Positions 1,951-13,734 of a stretch of DNA of 21,249 nt are shown one piece after another. The DNA comes from a virus. How positions within the stretch are numbered: the stretch's first letter is position 1; each line of letters begins with the position of its first letter. The notes under the pieces are model-generated. The model did not search any database. It was given only the letters and a program-made list of their open reading frames with translations, and had not been told where the DNA came from. The translations under genes and the position numbers were made by a program. The stretch is taken from positions 1 through 21,249 of the IMG/VR virus record IMGVR_UViG_3300037427_001236, one strand, 5' to 3'.

Positions 1951-2615
1951 AAGTTGGCTTCCTTACATGTTTGCTTAACTTCTTTGACCTCTTCTGCATT
2001 ATTACTAAACAGTTTCATCCAAAATGGAGGATCTATTATGTCATCTATCATTTTTATCTGTTCGTCATTAAAACGTTCTAATAAAGAACCACCTGTTTCA
2101 CTAAGATATAATATCCATGGACTAATTTTTCCGGATCTTAAATCAAATACTGCTCTTGCTGGTGTTACTTCTGTAAAATAGGTTTGCCATCCTGTGTTAT
2201 TATCTTCACTCCATTCTGCAAGATATATAATGCTTCGTTCTAATGCTTTTAATCCAGGTTCTTTTCTTACATACTCTTTCAAAAACTTATCATATTGTGC
2301 ATCGGATATCCATTGCTTTAATTTAACACCATTTTTTATTAACCATTCTGTAAATTTTTCTGGTGCTAACCATTCATTAACTTGACATGCTCTGCCAAAC
2401 TTAACAAATGACTCATAATAAGGACTCATAATAAAATCTTCTATACTTTTAGGTTCTTTAGCACTAGTATTAAGTTCATAAAACATTTGAAATGCACGAT
2501 GACTTAGCCTTATATGGCTCATATCTTTATCTGCAAATCTTCGTTTCTTTACACACATATGAACTGCCAGAGTTTTCTCCGATTTAAAAGATTTCTTGCA
2601 CCATTTACATTCCAT
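1947..2615 (-). CDS. Zinc-finger-bearing protein of unknown function, 222 aa
   Basis: The protein begins with a compact Cys/His motif: C3-x2-C6-x12-H19-x-C21, a C2HC variant of the classical C2H2 finger with Phe10 and Leu16 at the usual hydrophobic positions. It is followed by a basic stretch (KKRR). The remaining 190 residues are rich in Trp, Tyr and charged residues and show no motif I know. The initial finger suggests nucleic-acid or protein binding. The gene lies between gp62 (stop and start abut at 2615) and the SGNH-like protein (4-base overlap), so it is co-translated with replication genes. Such proteins occur as conserved hypotheticals in marine T4-like phages; I do not assign a function. 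Confidence 0.75.
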   Translation of the reverse strand: MECKWCKKSFKSEKTLAVHMCVKKRRFADKDMSHIRLSHRAFQMFYELNTSAKEPKSIEDFIMSPYYESFVKFGRACQVNEWLAPEKFTEWLIKNGVKLKQWISDAQYDKFLKEYVRKEPGLKALERSIIYLAEWSEDNNTGWQTYFTEVTPARAVFDLRSGKISPWILYLSETGGSLLERFNDEQIKMIDDIIDPPFWMKLFSNNAEEVKEVKQTCKEANL

Positions 2616-3079
2616 TATTTGAATATCTCTTTTATTTCTTTATCTGGCATACCTGAGTCTTTGACATACTGTTTAAGTTCATCTTTTGTGTTTATATTTA
2701 ACATAAGTTCTACTTCGTCTGATTTTAAATGTGGAAACATATCAGACATTGCATTAAAAACTTTATTTTTCTTCTTTCTTGTGTTAGGCGGTTTTATATA
2801 TTCGTGATTTTGTGATTTACCACAACCTGCTACAGTAAACAGTAACCATTGTAATTCAGGGTGTTTGCTAACATCACTAAATCTGTTATTCACAGTTTCA
2901 TTAACCATATACAAGTAGTCTGCCGACATAGTACCTCTAACACAACTAGCATACCTCATCATCATCCAGGCACTAAATGCCTTTTTTTGCTCAGCAGTAA
3001 GACTATTATACCAGCCACGGTCTTTTTTATCTATGGCTCGCATTACTTCTGCTAAAGGAATCTGAGGTTTCTTAGCCAT
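2615..3079 (-). CDS. 62: Clamp-loader small subunit (gp62-like)
   Basis: At 154 aa it resembles the shortened gp62 of marine T4-like phages more than T4 gp62 (187 aa). Recognisable parts are the N-terminal IPLAEVMRAIDKKDRGWYNSL, the following WMMMRYAS segment, and a basic patch (RKKKNK) in the middle. In T4, gp62 joins four gp44 ATPases to load the gp45 sliding clamp onto primer-template DNA; gp44 and gp45 are not in this window and probably lie beyond its low-coordinate edge. The gene overlaps the preceding small coiled-coil gene by 8 bases. Assignment is by recognition of the conserved N-terminus and neighbourhood, not by catalytic motif, since gp62 has none. Confidence 0.75.
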   Translation of the reverse strand: MAKKPQIPLAEVMRAIDKKDRGWYNSLTAEQKKAFSAWMMMRYASCVRGTMSADYLYMVNETVNNRFSDVSKHPELQWLLFTVAGCGKSQNHEYIKPPNTRKKKNKVFNAMSDMFPHLKSDEVELMLNINTKDELKQYVKDSGMPDKEIKEIFK

Positions 3080-3209
3080 TTTTATTTTCCTGTTGTGCTA
3101 TAAGTTCAGCAATTCTTTTTTCTTGTTCTTTGATTACATCTGCTTGGTCTTTTATAGTTTTCTTTTGAAACTTTAGTTTATCGCTTTGATGTTCTTGTTT
3201 CTCACTCAT
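3072..3209 (-). CDS. Small charged coiled-coil protein, 45 aa
   Basis: This gene fills the gap between the nucleosidase and gp62. Its ATG at 3209 shares one base with the nucleosidase stop (TAATG), and its TAA lies inside the start of gp62, 8 bases in, so all three are translationally linked. The protein is almost entirely Lys, Glu, Gln, Asp and Ile with heptad-like spacing of Ile, Val and Leu between residues 19 and 38, predicting a single amphipathic helix or coiled coil. There is a Shine-Dalgarno-like GGAGG a few bases before the ATG, inside the end of the nucleosidase gene. No family is recognised. Confidence 0.65.
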   Translation of the reverse strand: MSEKQEHQSDKLKFQKKTIKDQADVIKEQEKRIAELIAQQENKNG

Positions 3210-3757
3210 TAAAAGCCTCCTACAATCTGTTGAAATATTTTTATGTAATGTTCTTCACCATCTGCTACAGTTTTTGCCCAGTCATCATTTGCATTTTCAT
3301 CTGCACTATCACTAATATATTTAAAACATCTAAAGTTTACATCTGCTTGTTTACATGCTTTTGCTATTGCATAGGCTTCCATATCTACTACGTCTGATAT
3401 TACTTCTTCTTTAGTGATATCATTTACAAAATTATCTCCTGTACTACAACACATATCTTCTATATCGCCATTCAATAAAACTACACCTTTCTCAAAAGGT
3501 GTTTGCCCTATAGCAAATCCTAGTTCACAACACATCATATCACGTTGTACAAAGTTTTTAATTTCATGTATTCCAGATGCTACACTAACACCTCCTGCTG
3601 TACCAAAATTAAATACAGTTTCTGGTTTATATCGTTCTATTAGTTTACCAGCAGTAATACCTGCATTGACTTTGCCAACACCTGTGAAAAATACATTATC
3701 CCAAGATGCCATATTAGGTGCTTCTTGCTCTAATGCAATTAATATAATATTTCTCAT
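3209..3757 (-). CDS. MTA/SAH nucleosidase-like protein (phosphorylase superfamily)
   Basis: The 182-residue protein has the layout of 5'-methylthioadenosine/S-adenosylhomocysteine nucleosidase: an N-terminal strand with acidic residues E10/E12, GVGKVNAG at 26-33, FNFGTAGG at 50-57, VDMEA at 124-128 (E127 matching the ribose-binding Glu of E. coli MTAN) and SDSAD at 149-153 (D150 matching the catalytic Asp that protonates adenine). It is about 50 residues shorter than bacterial MTAN, mostly in the middle. The predicted product is free adenine plus a thioribose. The next gene upstream encodes adenine phosphoribosyltransferase, with no gap, so the pair could recycle adenine to AMP and clear the methyltransferase inhibitor SAH. 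A purine nucleoside phosphorylase activity cannot be excluded. Confidence 0.8.
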   Translation of the reverse strand: MRNIILIALEQEAPNMASWDNVFFTGVGKVNAGITAGKLIERYKPETVFNFGTAGGVSVASGIHEIKNFVQRDMMCCELGFAIGQTPFEKGVVLLNGDIEDMCCSTGDNFVNDITKEEVISDVVDMEAYAIAKACKQADVNFRCFKYISDSADENANDDWAKTVADGEEHYIKIFQQIVGGF

Positions 3758-4297
3758 TTATTCGCCTTCAAATTCTATTAATGTTTCTACGTTATAACCT
3801 TGTTCTTTTATTATAGCACTTCCTTGTAAAGTGGGCAAGTTTATTACACCTAAAATTAAAATATTCTTTTTAGGTATTTTCCAATTCTCATGTATCAAGT
3901 CAGCACAGGCTAATGCTGTTCCACCTGTAGCAATCAAGTCATCTATAATAACAACATTACTTACTATAGGAGAAATTTCTTGAATATGTAATTCTGTTTC
4001 TCCATATTCCAACTTAAACTTTTTGCTTACAGTTTTATTAGGTAACTTGCCAGGCTTCCTAGCCATTACAAAAGGCAAATCCATGTCTCTGGCAATTGGT
4101 GCCCCAAACACAAAACCTCTACTTTCAATACCTACTATAGTATTTCCATTAAACTGCATACAATGTTTAGTTAATTGTGTTAAAGTATAATTAAATCCTT
4201 CTGGTGCTTCAACTAACGATGTAATATCCCTAAACTGTATTCCAGGAATAGGGTGATCCGGAACTGTTCTAATATAATCTTTAAGATTCATATTCAT
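3758..4297 (-). CDS. apt: Adenine phosphoribosyltransferase
   Basis: Apt makes AMP from adenine and PRPP. With the start at 4297 the protein is 179 aa, a normal Apt length. It carries PGIQFRDIT (18-26), GIESRGF (56-62), RKPGKLP (80-86) and the PRPP-binding loop VVIIDDLIATGGT (115-127) with the two acidic residues D119 and D120. I place the start at ATG 4297 because GAAGAG ends 7 bases upstream. ATGs at 4300 and 4291 are alternatives with poorer spacing, and a longer upstream frame (to 4393) lies wholly inside the preceding gene. The gene overlaps the upstream acidic gene by 17 bases and abuts the nucleosidase gene, forming a two-step adenine salvage unit. Very secure. Confidence 0.93.
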   Translation of the reverse strand: MNMNLKDYIRTVPDHPIPGIQFRDITSLVEAPEGFNYTLTQLTKHCMQFNGNTIVGIESRGFVFGAPIARDMDLPFVMARKPGKLPNKTVSKKFKLEYGETELHIQEISPIVSNVVIIDDLIATGGTALACADLIHENWKIPKKNILILGVINLPTLQGSAIIKEQGYNVETLIEFEGE

Positions 4298-5018
4298 CAT
4301 CGTACTCTTCCCAATACTCAGACAAATCCTCATCTTCAGGATCTTTATAACTATCTCTCCATTGATCCGTACTCCAGCCAACTGCGGCTTCATAACTCTT
4401 GCCCATTGTGTCGTTGTAGTCGTAATTTGCTTCTAACAGTTCTTTATCATACCAAACATCTTCTACAAATTCGCCCATATGAGTTTCATTGACACTCATT
4501 ACAAGTTTGTTTTCTTCGAAAGGTTCGTCTGTATCCACAAACCAAGTAGCAAAACCACCTTTTTCTACGCTCATAAAAATCATAACAGGTGTACACCCTT
4601 CCGGAGTTTCGCCTTCTGAGTCTGTGCTAATGTATCCGCCTTCTCTACCTTTAAGCCAATGTGCTTCGCAACTAATTTCATTTTCATCGTATGCATAATC
4701 ATCGGATTCATCTGCAGGAACACTTGATACCATGAACCCTCCATCTGCAAAGGCGGCGTTAATATGTTCTTTATCATCTACTGCATACCATCCTTCAATC
4801 TCATTGCCTTCAGCAGTAATGTCTGGTGAATTAGGATCTTGCTCGTCATCATCGTCCCATTCACTTAGTGACAGTACATGGTCTATAAAACCACTTGAAT
4901 GTGAACCATCTTCTTCAATCTTGGGTGCCCAGTATTTTGCAAATTCTTCAGTAACAGTACCCATGGAACATTCGCCACCATATCTTCCGCCTTCAATTCT
5001 ATATCTATATTTTGCCAT
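4281..5018 (-). CDS. Highly acidic unknown protein, 245 aa
   Basis: No known family is recognised. By hand count about a quarter of residues are Asp or Glu, concentrated in residues 53-62 (a run containing DDDDE) and the C-terminal 35 residues, while the middle is rich in Gly, Trp, Tyr and Phe (FADGGFMV, KGGFATWFVD) like a compact beta domain. The start has an unusually good ribosome-binding site, AGGAGG, 7 bases before the ATG, so it should be strongly translated. It precedes apt in the same operon and overlaps it. The extreme acidity would fit a DNA mimic or a binding partner of a basic protein, but that is speculation from composition only. Confidence 0.8.
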   Translation of the reverse strand: MAKYRYRIEGGRYGGECSMGTVTEEFAKYWAPKIEEDGSHSSGFIDHVLSLSEWDDDDEQDPNSPDITAEGNEIEGWYAVDDKEHINAAFADGGFMVSSVPADESDDYAYDENEISCEAHWLKGREGGYISTDSEGETPEGCTPVMIFMSVEKGGFATWFVDTDEPFEENKLVMSVNETHMGEFVEDVWYDKELLEANYDYNDTMGKSYEAAVGWSTDQWRDSYKDPEDEDLSEYWEEYDDEYES

Positions 5019-5028
5019 TTTTTTCCTC

Positions 5029-5532
5029 CTAGTCTAATAAATGTCCCACGTCAATTTCTTGTGGGATTTTGTTGGCTTCCTTAACAAACATAGCACACCT
5101 TGGATTTGGTCCGTCTTCTAACGGTATCAATAACATGTGTCCGTGTTTTAGTTTAGGAAAGAACCATTTCACATCTTGAAAGATATTAGTGATTTTAATT
5201 TCCTCTGCTTGTAGTAACGATCCACTTAATGGATTTAATGTTACTGTTAAGAAACCTCTATTGTTTAAACTTGTTAATGGTATAACTTCTATACCACTTA
5301 AATCTTCATCTGTAATTGCTATACTCCAATCCATTGGCATTTGCAAATTATATTGTCCTATTTGCAAACAAATTGCCGGGGCATAAAAACTTTCTAAAAA
5401 TATAAGAGGCAAAAAATAATAATCCATAAAATCTGGATCTGTTGTATCAAATATCGAAAATCTGATATCATCTATTTGGTCTGGTACTTGGTCTATTTCA
5501 TAGACTGTATTATCTACTGTTAATATTCTCAT
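5029..5532 (-). CDS. Conserved-looking unknown protein, 167 aa
   Basis: The protein is rich in Leu, Ile, Phe and Pro with short alternating hydrophobic segments, suggesting an all-beta or mixed fold without membrane segments or signal peptide. Near residue 130 is a KLKHGHMLLIPL stretch with two His residues, but no known catalytic motif is seen. Its ATG overlaps the uvsW stop by 4 bases (ATGA), so it is translationally coupled to the helicase gene and might assist it. I do not recognise the family and give no function. Confidence 0.75.
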   Translation of the reverse strand: MRILTVDNTVYEIDQVPDQIDDIRFSIFDTTDPDFMDYYFLPLIFLESFYAPAICLQIGQYNLQMPMDWSIAITDEDLSGIEVIPLTSLNNRGFLTVTLNPLSGSLLQAEEIKITNIFQDVKWFFPKLKHGHMLLIPLEDGPNPRCAMFVKEANKIPQEIDVGHLLD

Positions 5533-6986
5533 CTATACTCCACTTTTGTTACTTGAAATCTAAAATCCTGCTGTTTATAAAAAGCCTTTCTTTTAGTCAA
5601 ATGTCTTTTACTATATTTTAGATTACTAGTAACATCGATAACTTGTAAGTAATCCTTGTCTTCTGCTTTACGGATTCCTCTACCAATACTTTGTATTACT
5701 CTAACAAAACTTTTGCCTGGTTCTAGTAATACTAAATTAAATATTCTTGGTATATTAATACCTACTGCCGCAACTCCGTATGTAGCAACAATAACTTTAT
5801 TATCCATGTCTGATACTTCTGCATATTCAGACTGTCTATCTGCAACTTTCATATCTCCGCTAATGAATGCCCAGTCTGGATTTCTTTCTTTAAACATTTC
5901 ACCTGTTTTAATTCTATCTATTAATACAAGTGTGTTTCCTGAACTGGCTAAGCCATTAATAATTGTTGTTAAATGGTCTATACGTTCAGGATCTGTAACT
6001 AACCATTTAAGTTCTTGTGCATAGTTATTAAAACCCATTACACCATCTTGCAGTTGAAATATATTAATATCAAGGTCTGCAAGTACGCCTTTGTCTTGTA
6101 ATTCTTTACTGCTTAACTGTCCTATAACAGGACCTAAACAACAAGTACAACCAACTGCTTCGTGTTCGTCTTGTGGTATTGTACCTGTTAGTCCCCATCT
6201 AATAGGAACATTTGCAAAAACGCCTCCTAATAGTTTTTGTAATACATCTGCTTTTGCTTTATGTACTTCATCGACCATTATACAAACAACACCATCAAGG
6301 AATTGTTCTATTGGAAAATCCGCTTCATACTTTTTGCTTTTCTTTTCAAGTACTGCAAGACTTTGCCAAGTACAAATTGTGTGAGTTTTATCATAGTCTT
6401 TTCTGTCGCCAAATAATACACCAACATCTAATCCTAAGTTTTTATAATCACGTTCTGTTTGTACTACCAAATCTTTGTTAGGAACAATAACAATACTTCT
6501 ACCATACTGCTCACACATATCGCTTAAGGCGGCAGTTATGAGCGTCTTACCGGCGCCTGTAGCCACCTCCTGCAAACTTTGTGGGTTTGCTAAAAAGTTA
6601 TTAATTACTTCTACTTGATAATCTCTAAGTATTACAGGTTCGCCTTCTGCTGGATGACCTTTGGGCCACATAGTATTTTCGTATCGCAAATCTGTAATAG
6701 GCTCGAATGCAAATGACCACTTTTTACGTTGGTCATCTACATCGATTTTATAGCCTGCATCTTGAACTATAGGTAATAATCTTTCCAATAAGTTCATATA
6801 TGTTCTGCCACCAATGTCGCAGTACCTTACACAACCATCCCATCTGCCTAGTTTGTAAGCAGGCATATGATATGCATAAGGTAAGAAATATTTTGCCGCA
6901 TCTGACATCTTACGTCTAGTTGTCGGATCAACTCCAGCAAACTTTACGTTTACTTCATCTCGTATTTCTAAAACACATTCAGGCAT
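5529..6986 (-). CDS. uvsW: UvsW RNA-DNA and DNA-DNA helicase
   Basis: This 485-residue superfamily 2 helicase has the expected motifs: an N-terminal substrate-recognition domain (residues 1-100, with LGRWDGCVRY at 46-55), Q-motif-like RDYQ at 121-124, Walker A ATGAGKT at 142-148, motif II DEVH at 239-242, motif III GLTGT at 265-269, and a C-terminal RecA domain ending with motif VI QSIGRGIRK. In T4, UvsW unwinds R-loops and branched recombination intermediates, switching replication from origin-driven to recombination-driven initiation and working with UvsX/UvsY, which are also encoded here. A short Cys-rich insertion (VGCTCCLG near 278-285) follows motif III. The gene starts 12 bases after the TonB-receptor stop and belongs to its operon. 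Confidence 0.95.
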   Translation of the reverse strand: MPECVLEIRDEVNVKFAGVDPTTRRKMSDAAKYFLPYAYHMPAYKLGRWDGCVRYCDIGGRTYMNLLERLLPIVQDAGYKIDVDDQRKKWSFAFEPITDLRYENTMWPKGHPAEGEPVILRDYQVEVINNFLANPQSLQEVATGAGKTLITAALSDMCEQYGRSIVIVPNKDLVVQTERDYKNLGLDVGVLFGDRKDYDKTHTICTWQSLAVLEKKSKKYEADFPIEQFLDGVVCIMVDEVHKAKADVLQKLLGGVFANVPIRWGLTGTIPQDEHEAVGCTCCLGPVIGQLSSKELQDKGVLADLDINIFQLQDGVMGFNNYAQELKWLVTDPERIDHLTTIINGLASSGNTLVLIDRIKTGEMFKERNPDWAFISGDMKVADRQSEYAEVSDMDNKVIVATYGVAAVGINIPRIFNLVLLEPGKSFVRVIQSIGRGIRKAEDKDYLQVIDVTSNLKYSKRHLTKRKAFYKQQDFRFQVTKVEYR

Positions 6987-6997
6987 AATTTATTATA

Positions 6998-8701
6998 CTA
7001 CCATTTGTATTGAATAGTCAAGTTAAATTCTCTACCTTGTGCATCATAATAAGGTAGTACTTCTGCTTCTTCATCTAAAATGTTTTCTGCTCTTAAGGCA
7101 AGACTTACACCATTAGAAAAGTTTTTAGTAACATACAAATTAACCATTTGTAAATCATCTAAGTATTCTTGACCATCAGGAAGGTAATCATATAAACCAG
7201 GCTCTCTATCAAATTGCCCAATGTATTTAATACCAAAGTCAATACTATTAAATGTATTTGCATATTCTAATACTGTAGCATACTTGGGTGTTCTAACTTG
7301 GTCTGTATCATTGTACTTTAATGTTAATCCAAAAGGTCCAAAGTTATTACTAAATCTAACACCTTTAGTTTTATAGTTTCCGCTATTATAGTACGAAGCA
7401 GGAGTAAAGATATCTTCTGTTACTGCATCTGTTAATAAATTACCATCTGCATCATATGTAGCAGGTGTTATAACTATTGTTTCTGTAGAACTACCTTGAT
7501 ATTCAATTGACTCATCAAAGTCATACAAAAATATACTTACAGCACCGATACCGATTTCATAACCTATACCTTCTTCAGGTTTAAGACTAGGATTTTCGGC
7601 TACCCAAGAGTCTCCAAACATTTCATACAAGTTGGGTTTTCTATAACTAGTACCTACGTTTGCCCAGAACTGACCTTTCTCAACACCAAATCTCATAGCA
7701 TGTTGGTTATCGTTACCTGCTCTAAATCCAAAGTTATAATTCATTATAAACTCTGCATCTATACTTAAAAATGCACCATAGTTATCATCTTCATGTTCGT
7801 TATATTTTTCTCTACTACCGTCAGCACCATATGTAACTTCTAGTTTGTCTGATAGTTTTACTGTGTCTCCTGCTCTGAAGTAATCTCTACTACTTTCGTT
7901 TAAGAATGAACTTGCGCCTTCAGTAAAGTATTCAGCATTTTCTTCTGTTCTGCCTATTGTAACATATTCGTTTCTTATACTAATTGTAGTTTTGTCACCG
8001 TCTTGAATACAATCATTAGACTGACTAAAACTTGCTGTATAACAATTATCATAACCATATTCATAATCAACATGATGTGCTGTTAATTGGAAATCCCCAA
8101 AGTCTTTGATAATTTTTGCACTAGTATTTTCATAAGTGTCTTCTTCCGTATTATCATTTCTAGCATGTTGTTTTGTTGAATAGTCTGTGAACTGTAACCA
8201 ACTAGTTGGAGCAAGACTGATATATTGATTGCTGTTAGACCCAACCCGAGCAGTAATGCCTCTATCAATAGTATCTTGAATTAATACTGTTCCAGCAATA
8301 CTGCCTGAACCATACATAACTCCATTAGCACCAGAAATAACTTTAACGTTTTCTCCTGATGTGATATCATGCCCAAAGTCATACCAACCACTTCCTGGAT
8401 TGTTTGCAGGAATTCCGTTTCTGTAAACTGAGGTATGTACACCTTGCTGACCTCTTTCTCTCATCAACATATTTCCGCCATCGCCACCTGCTGTCCAGGT
8501 ATGTTCAGGAAGTATTTCACTGATAAGTGTTGTGCTGTCTAAAGCATCTGTTTGTGTAGTTTCTGTTTCTTGGGCATACACAATAACCTCTTCTATGTTT
8601 TCCGCTTTAACTTCATTTGCAATAAACAATAAAAACATAACTGCCAGTATTGCATAAAAAGGGCTAAAGTTAATATGGAAATTTTTATCCATTTTGTCCA
8701 T
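6998..8701 (-). CDS. TonB-dependent outer-membrane receptor, phage-encoded
   Basis: The 567-residue protein has the full architecture of a TonB-dependent receptor. Residues 1-15 are a charged n-region, 16-28 a hydrophobic core, and VKA (31-33) a signal-peptidase I site. EEVIVYA (37-43) matches a TonB box. The plug spans about 45-150 and includes RNGIPANNPGSGWYDFG (94-110) and the typical GANGVMYGSGSIAGTV (124-139). The rest is an alternating-residue beta barrel with the hallmark SYRKPNLYEMF followed by NPSLKPEEG, ending in the terminal aromatic W567 needed for BamA recognition. It is slightly short for the class (BtuB is about 590 mature residues). No metabolic marker fixes the ligand; iron chelates, cobalamin or another metal complex are possible. 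It lies 12 bases before uvsW and has its own promoter, so it is a phage operon gene rather than an insertion. Its GAGG ribosome site is 6 bases before the ATG. Confidence 0.9.
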   Translation of the reverse strand: MDKMDKNFHINFSPFYAILAVMFLLFIANEVKAENIEEVIVYAQETETTQTDALDSTTLISEILPEHTWTAGGDGGNMLMRERGQQGVHTSVYRNGIPANNPGSGWYDFGHDITSGENVKVISGANGVMYGSGSIAGTVLIQDTIDRGITARVGSNSNQYISLAPTSWLQFTDYSTKQHARNDNTEEDTYENTSAKIIKDFGDFQLTAHHVDYEYGYDNCYTASFSQSNDCIQDGDKTTISIRNEYVTIGRTEENAEYFTEGASSFLNESSRDYFRAGDTVKLSDKLEVTYGADGSREKYNEHEDDNYGAFLSIDAEFIMNYNFGFRAGNDNQHAMRFGVEKGQFWANVGTSYRKPNLYEMFGDSWVAENPSLKPEEGIGYEIGIGAVSIFLYDFDESIEYQGSSTETIVITPATYDADGNLLTDAVTEDIFTPASYYNSGNYKTKGVRFSNNFGPFGLTLKYNDTDQVRTPKYATVLEYANTFNSIDFGIKYIGQFDREPGLYDYLPDGQEYLDDLQMVNLYVTKNFSNGVSLALRAENILDEEAEVLPYYDAQGREFNLTIQYKW

Positions 8702-8761
8702 TTTTTTCCTCGGGGTGTTCTTCCCTGTTAATTAAAGTAACACTCATTGCTACTTCTTGTA

Positions 8762-8789
8762 ATTATACACTTTACTGCGGCAAAGTCAA
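8762..8789 (-). promoter_or_regulatory. Sigma70-type promoter for the TonB receptor-uvsW operon
   Basis: The -35 box is TTGACT at 8789-8784, followed by a 16-base spacer and a perfect TATAAT at 8767-8762. The predicted transcription start is near 8755, leaving a leader of about 50 bases before the receptor ATG at 8701. No other strong promoter is visible downstream to position 1, so this site may drive the whole 8.7-kb gene string. Confidence 0.85.
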
Positions 8790-8820: not shown

Positions 8821-8898
8821 GAAGCCCGGAGGGGACCGGGCTTCGTGGTGTCCTATTTAGGGGATGACTAACAATTGGACACCGGGGGAACTGTTAGT
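8821..8898 (-). ncRNA. Structured GC-rich element: hairpin plus H-type pseudoknot
   Basis: The region downstream of the AAA ATPase gene contains three perfect helices. The first is a 9-bp hairpin, 8821-8829 with 8836-8844, loop AGGGGA on plus. The second pairs 8847-8853 (GGTGTCC) with 8877-8883. The third pairs 8867-8873 (ACTAACA) with 8892-8898. The last two interleave, so they form an H-type pseudoknot or two alternative structures. Every loop exposes GGGGA on plus, that is UCCCC on minus (8830-8835, 8859-8864, 8884-8889), in an otherwise AT-rich genome. Minus is the likely transcribed strand, as a 3' untranslated region or processed small RNA, but pairing is symmetric and the strand is not proven. 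There is no U-tract, so a simple intrinsic terminator is not supported. Confidence 0.6.
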
Positions 8899-8910
8899 TC
8901 TATACTTATT

Positions 8911-9948
8911 TTATATCGTTCCTGACATACAAGTTGTTCTGGCTAGTTTCTGCCAATTGCTTGGGTCCATTTTTCTAAGGTCCGCAATTTTCAAAACCAT
9001 TCTCAAAGATATCTCCCTAACAATATCTTGATGCTCAGTCATAAAGTCAACAACTTCTTTGTCGCCATCTTTACCAAACTTGTATTCCTCAAGCATACCA
9101 TCTGCAACTATCTGATTAATTCTAAGAAATTTATCTCTCTTAGAATTCATTGTAAGATCCAAGTAGTGACATCTTGACATAAGTGCCGCTAAGTGATCCT
9201 TAATCTTTTTAGAACGAACGTTTTCAAAATCAACGTTAGTAATAAAGATACAACCACCTTTGAATTCAAACCTATCAGGTATACCTTCTCTACGAAGTGC
9301 TTGTGATTCTGACTTCCAAGTAATAGTTCTTTTCTTACCTGAATCCAAAGTAGCCTTCAACATGTTCAAACATACTTCGTCAAACAAAACACTATCACAG
9401 TCATCAAATACAAGTATGTTACCTGCTTCTGAATTATTGTAAAGAGTTTGAAATAGACCAATTGGTGTAACAGAACCTTTTACAACTTCTGTCCTTGCAG
9501 GTTTACCAGCAACCTGTGTCAACATGTCATAATCTTCAAGAACAGTTTCAACACCAAATGACTTACCAACTCCTGGAGGGCCACTTACTATCATACCACG
9601 TACCGTACCTTCTGCTACAGCATGAGTCATACGATCCAAAATATCAAAACGTTCTCTGATACGTTCAATTGCATCTGAGTCTGATTCTGTTTCTTTTGGA
9701 GTGTTATCAATTTTTGGTTGTTCTGCATAAACACTTGGAGTAACATACTCTAAGTCTTTTGTAGGATCTTGTATCAAAACCCTAATACTTGCAAATTTAT
9801 CTCCCATCACTTCACTACCATCAACGGTAATAAAAGCACCCTTTTTGCCAATGTTAAGTGGCTTTAAGATTGGAAATACAGTATCAACGATTTCGTTTTT
9901 ACGGTATGTACCAGTCTTAATTTTTACATAATTTATTGCTTTTGTCAT
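8911..9948 (-). CDS. AAA-family ATPase, 345 aa
   Basis: An N-terminal region of about 95 residues without known motifs precedes a P-loop ATPase domain. Walker A is GPPGVGKS (123-130), Walker B is NILVFDDCDS (177-186), and CIFITNVDF further on is a sensor 1-like strand ending in Asn. The domain resembles phage AAA ATPases related to MoxR/CobS-type or RuvB-like proteins more than clamp-loader gp44, because the zinc and SRC motifs of clamp loaders are missing. A remodelling or unwinding role in DNA or protein complexes is likely, partner unknown. It is a single-gene unit with its own strong promoter (10009-10036), an unusual G-rich ribosome site (GGGG, 8 bases before ATG) and a structured RNA directly after its stop. 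Confidence 0.85.
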   Translation of the reverse strand: MTKAINYVKIKTGTYRKNEIVDTVFPILKPLNIGKKGAFITVDGSEVMGDKFASIRVLIQDPTKDLEYVTPSVYAEQPKIDNTPKETESDSDAIERIRERFDILDRMTHAVAEGTVRGMIVSGPPGVGKSFGVETVLEDYDMLTQVAGKPARTEVVKGSVTPIGLFQTLYNNSEAGNILVFDDCDSVLFDEVCLNMLKATLDSGKKRTITWKSESQALRREGIPDRFEFKGGCIFITNVDFENVRSKKIKDHLAALMSRCHYLDLTMNSKRDKFLRINQIVADGMLEEYKFGKDGDKEVVDFMTEHQDIVREISLRMVLKIADLRKMDPSNWQKLARTTCMSGTI

Positions 9949-12401: not shown

Positions 12402-12629
12402 TTAATCCCATTCCTCTTCGTCATCTTCTTCATCAAAGCCGAAGTGTCCAACAATAGCATTTTTCATTGCCGAGTCAAACATGTTGATATTTTCCTGAAT
12501 ATCAGACAAGTCTAGATTTTCATCAGTAATTCCAACAAGTTGTTCTGCCGCTTGTAGCCTATCTTTTTTAGGAATATAATTTTTCATACTATCCCATAGG
12601 TCGATTAAAAAACTTAAATCAGGATTCAT
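12402..12629 (-). CDS. Small acidic protein between uvsX and uvsY, 75 aa
   Basis: A helical N-terminal half (DLWDSMKNYIPKKDRLQAAEQ) is followed by a strongly acidic tail ending FDEEDDEEEWD. Acidic ends of this type occur on ssDNA-binding and recombination proteins, where they bind partner proteins. The ATG overlaps the end of uvsX by 11 bases and the stop is 3 bases before the uvsY start, so it is made with both and may be an accessory of the presynaptic complex. No family is recognised with certainty. Confidence 0.75.
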   Translation of the reverse strand: MNPDLSFLIDLWDSMKNYIPKKDRLQAAEQLVGITDENLDLSDIQENINMFDSAMKNAIVGHFGFDEEDDEEEWD

Positions 12630-13734
12630 TGCTCATATCCTCTATGTTAGGGTCATCTACCAAAGTTTCATCATCTACTAAGTCATCGAAGTTTTCATCT
12701 CCAACAACTGGTATTTGATTCCACTCGTCCATAACTACTTGTAAACGTTCTTCAGTCCACTGCTTTCTAAACTCTTTGATAATCTCTCCTGTAACAGGTG
12801 ATGTATATTCAAGTTTATTACCAGTTTTTGTAACGATACCTTTTGCTTCAAGCAATTCTAAAATACCTGAGTAAGGATTCATTCCTGTCTCATATGGTAT
12901 TTTAACTTGTACACTTTCAAACGGTTTGCTGTAACGAGTTTTCATTACTTTACATGCCGCTCTAATACCTTGTACAGTAGTAGTTTTGTTACCATCCTCA
13001 TCTTCTTTAAGTTTAAGTTTTTTCATTGCAACTACAATACTTGAAGCATATACAAACCCTTGTCCACCGGATATTTTATCATCTGGATCAAACATGTCTT
13101 GTGATGCGTATGTATGGTTAGTAGCAACAAGTCCGATTGGATGTGGTGCTAATTGGTTAACTGTATTTCTAACTAAGGCTGTTAGTGCCTTTGGTTTTCT
13201 ACCCATATCACCTTTCATATCACCTTTTTCAAATTGTGCAACATCAGTTGGTGTTAATAACATACCCAAACTGTCTACTACAAATAGCATTTTAGGTTGT
13301 TCATCGTATGGTAAATCACCATAGTTAGATTTATAGTCTTTTACAAATTCACTGATTGTTTTAGCAACATCATCAATCATGCTAACACTAATTTTGAGAA
13401 GTTTCTCTGGACTAGTGTCTACATCTAATGCTTGTAGCCAATCTTCATCGAGTGCATTTTCACTGTCAAATAGTACAACTTGACAGCCTTGGTCTTGTGC
13501 GTTTTTAACTAAATTACCTGAACAGATAAAACTTTTACCTGAACCAGACTCTCCTGCAAATACACTTACCTTACCAAGTGGGACTCCTTTATGAAAGTCT
13601 CCGCTTATTAAGTAATTTAAAGTATAGTTACCGGTTGATATCCAATCCTGTGGGTCATGAAATCCTGCACTAATGCCAGATATTCCTTTTGTTATGCCCG
13701 TTCTGAATTTAGTTAAGTCAAATGGTTTCTGCAT
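12619..13734 (-). CDS. uvsX: UvsX RecA-like recombinase
   Basis: UvsX forms filaments on ssDNA and performs strand exchange during recombination-dependent replication. The 371-residue protein has Walker A GESGSGKS at 61-68, the catalytic-Glu region LFDSENALDE (88-97), Walker B MLFVVDS at 149-155 and a loop L1/L2 area with SGGQGFVYASS. The acidic C-terminal tail (VGDENFDDLVDDE onwards) is like the regulatory tail of T4 UvsX (391 aa). It lies 10 bases after gp32 with an AAGGAG ribosome site and precedes a small acidic gene and uvsY. Confidence 0.95.
   Translation of the reverse strand: MQKPFDLTKFRTGITKGISGISAGFHDPQDWISTGNYTLNYLISGDFHKGVPLGKVSVFAGESGSGKSFICSGNLVKNAQDQGCQVVLFDSENALDEDWLQALDVDTSPEKLLKISVSMIDDVAKTISEFVKDYKSNYGDLPYDEQPKMLFVVDSLGMLLTPTDVAQFEKGDMKGDMGRKPKALTALVRNTVNQLAPHPIGLVATNHTYASQDMFDPDDKISGGQGFVYASSIVVAMKKLKLKEDEDGNKTTTVQGIRAACKVMKTRYSKPFESVQVKIPYETGMNPYSGILELLEAKGIVTKTGNKLEYTSPVTGEIIKEFRKQWTEERLQVVMDEWNQIPVVGDENFDDLVDDETLVDDPNIEDMSNES

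Follow-up and report, generated by a model that had tools for sequence, protein, structure and literature searches.

A BtuB-like TonB-dependent receptor encoded by uncultured, mostly jumbo-sized phages, a candidate nutrient importer

Features of the locus

The DNA analysed (the window) is the whole of IMG/VR virus record IMGVR_UViG_3300037427_001236, a linear fragment of 21,249 bases. Positions 6998-8701 of its minus strand hold an intact open reading frame, running from ATG to TAG without a frameshift and encoding a TonB-dependent receptor (TBDR) of 567 amino acids. The gene, its parts and its neighbours were assigned as follows.

3209-3757, minus strand: nucleosidase resembling MTA/SAH nucleosidases (in another genomic context, a homologue precedes the TBDR gene by 1-2 nt)
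3758-4393, minus strand: adenine phosphoribosyltransferase
5529-6986, minus strand: uvsW helicase, conserved downstream neighbour (domain search, relatives)
6992-7021, minus strand: predicted uvsW promoter TTGACT-N18-TATAAT (in 34 of 53 distinct TBDR ends)
6998-8701, minus strand: BtuB-like TBDR, 567 aa (Pfam, profile, AlphaFold, Foldseek, alignment)
7001-8260, minus strand: predicted 22-stranded barrel, residues 148-567 (AlphaFold model, strand count, Foldseek match to BtuB)
8009-8050, minus strand: extracellular loop L3, residues 218-231, DNCYTASFSQSNDC (alignment, model)
8141-8167, minus strand: extracellular loop L2, residues 179-187, HARNDNTEE (alignment, model)
8288-8548, minus strand: plug domain, residues 52-138 (Pfam PF07715)
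8573-8596, minus strand: TonB box IEEVIVYA, residues 36-43 (alignment of 45 relatives)
8603-8701, minus strand: leader or signal peptide, residues 1-33, phage-type 'DKNFHINFSPFY', predicted cut after VKA (sequence; conserved in relatives)
8707-8711, minus strand: Shine-Dalgarno GAGGA just before the TBDR ATG (sequence)
8762-8789, minus strand: sigma70-type promoter of the TBDR gene, TTGACT-N16-TATAAT (hexamers kept in 39 distinct promoter sequences)
8821-8844, minus strand: hairpin with a 9-bp stem, GAAGCCCGG..CCGGGCTTC, upstream of the promoter, with no T-run (in many relatives)
8911-9948, minus strand: AAA ATPase of phrog_1250, function uncharacterised, conserved upstream neighbour (domain search, relatives)

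The leader, read from the sequence and the alignment, is predicted to end in ...NEVKA, with the mature protein starting at ENIEE, so that the TonB box stretch IEEVIVYAQ lies near the mature N-terminus. Among the 45 aligned relatives, E37 and V41 of the box are invariant and I36 and E38 are kept in at least 90%. The Pfam Plug model PF07715 matched the window's TBDR with 32.3 bits against a cut-off of 23.9 and was matched by all 45 relatives; the plug ends with the signature SGANGVMYGSGSIAGTVLI. The Pfam barrel model PF00593 matched just 2 of the 45 family members. An AlphaFold model built with the family alignment as input (pLDDT 85.9, pTM 0.83) consists of a plug and a barrel, in which we assigned 22 strands by their up-down order, setting aside a hairpin in loop 8. 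The C-terminus, ...LTIQYKW with its terminal Trp, is strongly conserved among relatives; the most divergent subgroup has another ending. The original prediction had described a complete phage-borne TBDR with signal peptide, TonB box, plug signature and terminal Trp, all of which can be read directly in the uninterrupted frame, and the model has the plug and 22 strands expected of such a protein. With a Plug domain, a TonB box, a modelled 22-strand barrel, a leader and a terminal aromatic residue, the protein is assigned to the TBDR class and would be predicted to act as a transporter.

Sequence conservation is distributed unevenly over the protein. Residues invariant in the 45 relatives are R181, D183, N184 and E186 of L2, D188, D218, the cysteine pair C220/C231 of L3, N229 and many plug residues. 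Conservation is high in the plug (3.29 bits), L2 (3.40), L3 (3.32), L9 (3.37) and L7 (3.16) and low in L1 (1.43), L4 (1.84) and L8 (about 1-1.4), and some family members carry large insertions in L5 and L8. The surfaces that face the ligand are thus kept while other outer loops vary.

The TBDR leader (DKNFHINFSPLY...) was also found in related phage contigs on a DUF481 beta-barrel protein (L256:1501-2187) and a 61-aa open reading frame (L255:1486-1671), as if one export leader were reused across the lineage. A second leader type, FFHKHILKITFI, is also found on TBDRs.

The sequence TTGACW-N16-TATAAT precedes the TBDR gene in most relatives, usually 50-90 nt before the start. Both hexamers are shared by the 39 distinct promoter sequences while their spacers diverge, which is the pattern expected for a working sigma70-type promoter. 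A strong promoter of its own, as originally proposed, could be placed at 8789-8762. The hairpin upstream of it is GC-rich. At the other end of the gene, the -35 hexamer of the putative uvsW promoter is encoded in the conserved last Leu-Thr codons of the TBDR and the -10 hexamer follows directly after the TAG stop. Its consensus in the family is TTGACN-N18-TATAAT, and this element would serve uvsW, which starts after a gap of 11 nt, one less than the 12 bases first reported. The TBDR gene had been said to lead a replication operon. It does adjoin replication genes, but uvsW has its own predicted promoter (7021-6992) overlapping the TBDR 3' end, and the TBDR lies elsewhere in other phages; we therefore read the gene as a self-contained unit between two transcription units rather than as the head of a replication operon. 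A sigma70-type promoter, the kind used by the host polymerase, suggests that the TBDR may be expressed early. Neither a cobalamin riboswitch nor any other Rfam family was found in the 21,249-nt window.

Elsewhere in the window, a RecA-like gene overlaps the next gene, of 75 aa, by 11 nt (12402-13734); many relatives have the two genes in this order with the same overlap.

Distribution and exchange of the receptor gene

Scanning viral contigs with the TBDR protein yielded 38 loci, among them copies from other metagenomes that are 100% identical and have the same flanking genes, and a scan with an alignment of relatives found at least 271 stretches encoding TBDR relatives. The search of viral contigs with the neighbouring UvsW gave 80 loci, the closest 80 of 195 UvsW relatives, so that its outcome describes this lineage: the TBDR gene lay directly before uvsW in 71 of the 79 contigs with readable sequence upstream of uvsW. 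There the TBDR usually sits after an AAA ATPase gene; the phrog_1250 ATPase (8911-9948) is conserved directly 5' of either the TBDR or uvsW.

Misassembly or bacterial contamination is a concern in principle for metagenomic contigs, and a chimera would have undone the original prediction. Contig L001 (16.3 kb) carries TBDR, UvsW and AAA345 all 100% identical to those of the window, L002 covers the uvsW junction and L027 covers the upstream side of the TBDR. The same junctions occur in dozens of independent contigs, and the TBDR is also carried by contigs of 217, 250 and 340 kb. An artefact of this kind was rejected, its probability being negligible, because the identical gene and flanks recur in independent contigs.

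The size of the 217-, 250- and 340-kb contigs indicates jumbo phages. The closest cultured relatives (terminase 48-58%, UvsW 53-55%) are Pseudomonas PA5oct/Ettore, Sinorhizobium Phosso and Agrobacterium Atu_ph07, which differ from the lineage in having no annotated TBDR before their own uvsW. By these comparisons, the lineage that hosts the TBDR is identified as mostly jumbo-sized uncultured phages distantly related to Pseudomonas phage PA5oct. In a set of 50,697 phage records, the TBDR of the window matched only BtuB genes of bacterial contigs and a divergent member of the TBDR family matched nothing.

Close pairs of TBDR genes gave dN/dS values of 0.03-0.30, indicating purifying selection and hence a maintained function. 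The TBDR is nevertheless often far more divergent than the genes next to it: between L096 and L109, UvsW is 99% and the AAA protein 92% identical and the TBDR 65%, and between L028 and L031 the corresponding values are 99%, 99% and 85%. Fast divergence is not confined to the TBDR, since some other genes share it. The clearest of these encodes an acidic protein of 245 aa with no family assigned (4281-5018), which between close relatives diverges as fast as the TBDR or faster and is 70% identical in L006/L007, where most neighbouring genes reach 89-100%. Of the 45 well-supported splits in the TBDR tree, 23 disagree with the UvsW tree. We conclude from these patterns that whole TBDR alleles are exchanged between phages.

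The gene also changes place and can be lost. In one other setting it follows a nucleosidase gene within a baseplate region; in another it is flanked by a 143-aa gene and the AAA gene. In L046 and L047 the TBDR is deleted down to 16 codons at its start and 14 at its end, and the end remnant contains the uvsW promoter; six further contigs lack the TBDR with no trace remaining. The deletion scar of L046 (3020-3530) and L047 holds a duplicated promoter and a short uncharacterised open reading frame between the remnants. As judged from these contigs, the TBDR gene is retained and yet mobile, exchangeable and dispensable.

Origin of the receptor and its likeness to BtuB

Two pattern-based scans of genome contigs, one with the protein-family alignment and one with plug segments, confirmed no close cellular homologue; such scans can miss distant relatives. 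The best tblastn matches in plasmid records, which hold many TBDRs, reached only about 22-26% identity. They were E. coli loci, one of them adjoining murI as btuB does, and Vibrio receptors, one of which is annotated BtuB. Recent transfer from a host appears unlikely, no close cellular gene having been found in the genome-contig scans or the plasmid tblastn. The donor lineage that the original prediction had hoped to trace did not emerge, no recent donor being found; as far as the searched collections show, the TBDR family would be old and virus-specific.

Comparison with described receptors consistently led to BtuB. Searched against PDB sequences, the family profile had BtuB as its sole match (E about 2e-14, positions 60-551), and hhalign against E. 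coli BtuB gave a probability of 98.5% at 26% identity. The first 12 Foldseek matches of the TBDR model were all BtuB, 11 of them from E. coli (E 1e-20). Among NCBIfam models, TonB-B12 was the best, matched by 33 of 45 members far below its cut-off; some members also match haem-receptor models. The BtuB equivalog models TIGR01779 and NF007926 gave 40.7 of 599.7 bits and 37.1 of 836 bits. Since these cut-offs were not reached, we call the protein BtuB-like and do not file it as BtuB. By the comparisons as a whole it would be expected to function as BtuB does. Of the receptor types first listed for comparison (BtuB, FepA, OprC and FoxA), profile, fold and NCBIfam searches all single out BtuB. From sequence profile, fold search and blast, BtuB is the only clear cellular relative, at about 20-26% identity, a likeness that may partly reflect BtuB being a short TBDR.

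BtuB holds B12 with its loops L2-L5 and has two calcium sites enclosed by a cage of five aspartates (PMC7360065). The viral L2/L3 region has the invariant acidic residues D183, E186, D188 and D218, whose pairing with the BtuB calcium ligands is ambiguous residue by residue. Like E. coli BtuB (PDB 1nqe, 2gsk, 3m8d), the viral TBDR has a plug and a 22-stranded barrel, a TonB box, a plug surface motif of similar sequence, acidic L2/L3 loops and a similar C-terminal end (N-L-D-E...GRE). Unlike it, the viral TBDR has a virus-specific leader, the L3 cysteine pair and a terminal Trp.

In the literature searched, which was incomplete so that priority is not certain, phage TBDRs were described only for Mar_Mega_1 and Polarivirus skadi. 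The marine megaphage Mar_Mega_1 encodes a SusC-like TBDR proposed to raise uptake during infection (PMC9723777). Here too a TBDR is carried by a large phage, in this case a marine one, but the protein is of the SusC class and known from a single description. Compared with a BFVD TBDR that bears the label SusC and comes from an uncultured marine phage, the viral TBDR shows 12% identity and a TM score of 0.54. The pelagiphage Polarivirus skadi has an annotated TBDR among its structural genes, in which its authors saw a pointer to the adsorption receptor (PMC10504331); the TBDR annotation is shared, but this marine phage is of the HTVC010P type, a different phage group. A gut study names SusC and iroN among the abbreviations that it lists for viral auxiliary genes, and TonB-dependent receptors are not mentioned in a 2026 jumbo-phage review or a marine jumbo-phage survey.

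Possible roles in the infected cell

The TonB box and the ligand-side loops are conserved and the gene is under purifying selection, which favours nutrient import. Taking all substrates together, import is the best-supported role and probably the correct one. The original prediction had left the choice between nutrient supply and exclusion; the evidence now favours supply, with exclusion as a rival. Our preferred, still tentative reading is that the TBDR actively imports cobalamin, or a cofactor that is likewise bulky and scarce, into the infected cell. No phage TonB_C domain was found in 16 contigs, so that, with the TonB box conserved, host TonB would be used. Soon after infection, host RNA polymerase would read the TBDR gene from its own sigma70-type promoter, and the protein would be exported and then inserted into the outer membrane. 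Driven by host TonB-ExbBD, it would let the infected cell take up cobalamin or another bulky, scarce cofactor complex, and the imported cofactor would keep metabolism going while a large phage replicates. What is inferred here is that the gene is expressed early, that its product inserts into the membrane and transports, and that cobalamin is what it carries. Several points speak against a cobalamin importer: the low BtuB equivalog scores, the ambiguous pairing of the calcium ligands, the class of ribonucleotide reductase and the commonness of B12-type radical SAM genes in phages without a Plug domain, both described below, the lack of a riboswitch and the loss of the gene in L046/L047.

Possible consumers of the imported substrate were sought in the lineage. 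Its contigs encode the class I ribonucleotide reductase NrdA/NrdB; of 14 larger ones, 8 have the large subunit. Class I enzymes need iron or a comparable metal, whereas class II enzymes depend on B12, and a B12-dependent ribonucleotide reductase was thus rejected as the consumer. Radical SAM proteins with a B12-binding domain, which are possible B12 consumers judging from their domains, occur in three lineage contigs and in the 340-kb relative of one of them; proteins of this type, with the motif GCPxxCxFCDWG, lie at L242:58-1908, L243:16-1899 and L151:3161-5230. As linked partners of the TBDR they are weakened by being common in phages without a Plug domain: at least 559 viral stretches carry B12-type radical SAM genes, and 15 other contigs that do so, seven of them over 230 kb, have no Plug domain. 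These proteins have no PHROG match, and cultured phage records yielded just one weak match to them. In the jumbo phage contig L242, an NAD synthase gene (2262-3206) adjoins the radical SAM gene.

A nucleosidase of the MTA/SAH type and an adenine phosphoribosyltransferase could recycle by-products of radical SAM-type enzymes. The gene arrangement is suggestive of a link between nucleosidase and TBDR; as an obligate partner the nucleosidase is weakened because several contigs with a TBDR, among them the 250-kb contig, show none. In a fuller scheme of cobalamin piracy, the phage B12 gate would feed the phage B12-binding radical SAM protein, and the nucleosidase and phosphoribosyltransferase would recycle the adenosyl by-products. 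All parts of this route occur in the lineage, the linkage between them is partial, and we consider the complete scheme quite unlikely.

The conservation of TonB box, plug and L2/L3 would equally fit a TonB-driven importer of another substrate, such as a ferric siderophore, haem, zinc or a nucleoside-like compound. Iron is the likeliest of these, since the class I ribonucleotide reductase (NrdA/NrdB) encoded in the phage contigs depends on it. The matches of some members to haem-receptor models and the nucleosidase gene that adjoins the TBDR in one context point the same way, whereas receptors for siderophores, haem and zinc score below BtuB in the comparisons made. This alternative is possible but on the unlikely side. 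The main rival, which we regard as unlikely, is superinfection exclusion or competition, in which the displayed TBDR would occupy host TonB or act as a decoy and so block TonB-dependent phages and bacteriocins. A surface protein under such pressure would be expected to show the observed conflicts with the uvsW tree (23 of 45 splits) and the swapping of alleles between phages that share 92-100% identity in the genes alongside; the variable L1, L4, L5 and L8, with large insertions in L5 and L8, and the dispensability of the gene agree with it. Titrating TonB or decoying would, however, need no invariant residues at the plug top and in L2/L3, the TonB box and plug are intact, and loop variation is also common in bacterial transporters targeted by phages. 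A replacement for a host nutrient receptor lost or shut down in infection, with the substrate of host BtuB, would account for a BtuB-like protein with its own promoter. Such a role is very unlikely: the TBDR is remote from every cellular gene found, which would not be expected of a gene taken from a host recently.

TonB-dependent receptors usually serve phages as points of attack. The import reading suggests that viruses may also open a feeding port of their own on the infected cell. A phage lineage that encodes and conserves a TBDR and trades its alleles suggests that viruses can alter the uptake of scarce nutrients by infected cells. The original prediction had treated the phage as marine. 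Cobalamin is a limiting vitamin in the sea, and if it is the substrate, infection by viruses would act directly on the B12 economy. The system lends itself to testing: it consists of a single gene with a single promoter, its structural relative is well studied, and assays of B12 uptake are standard.
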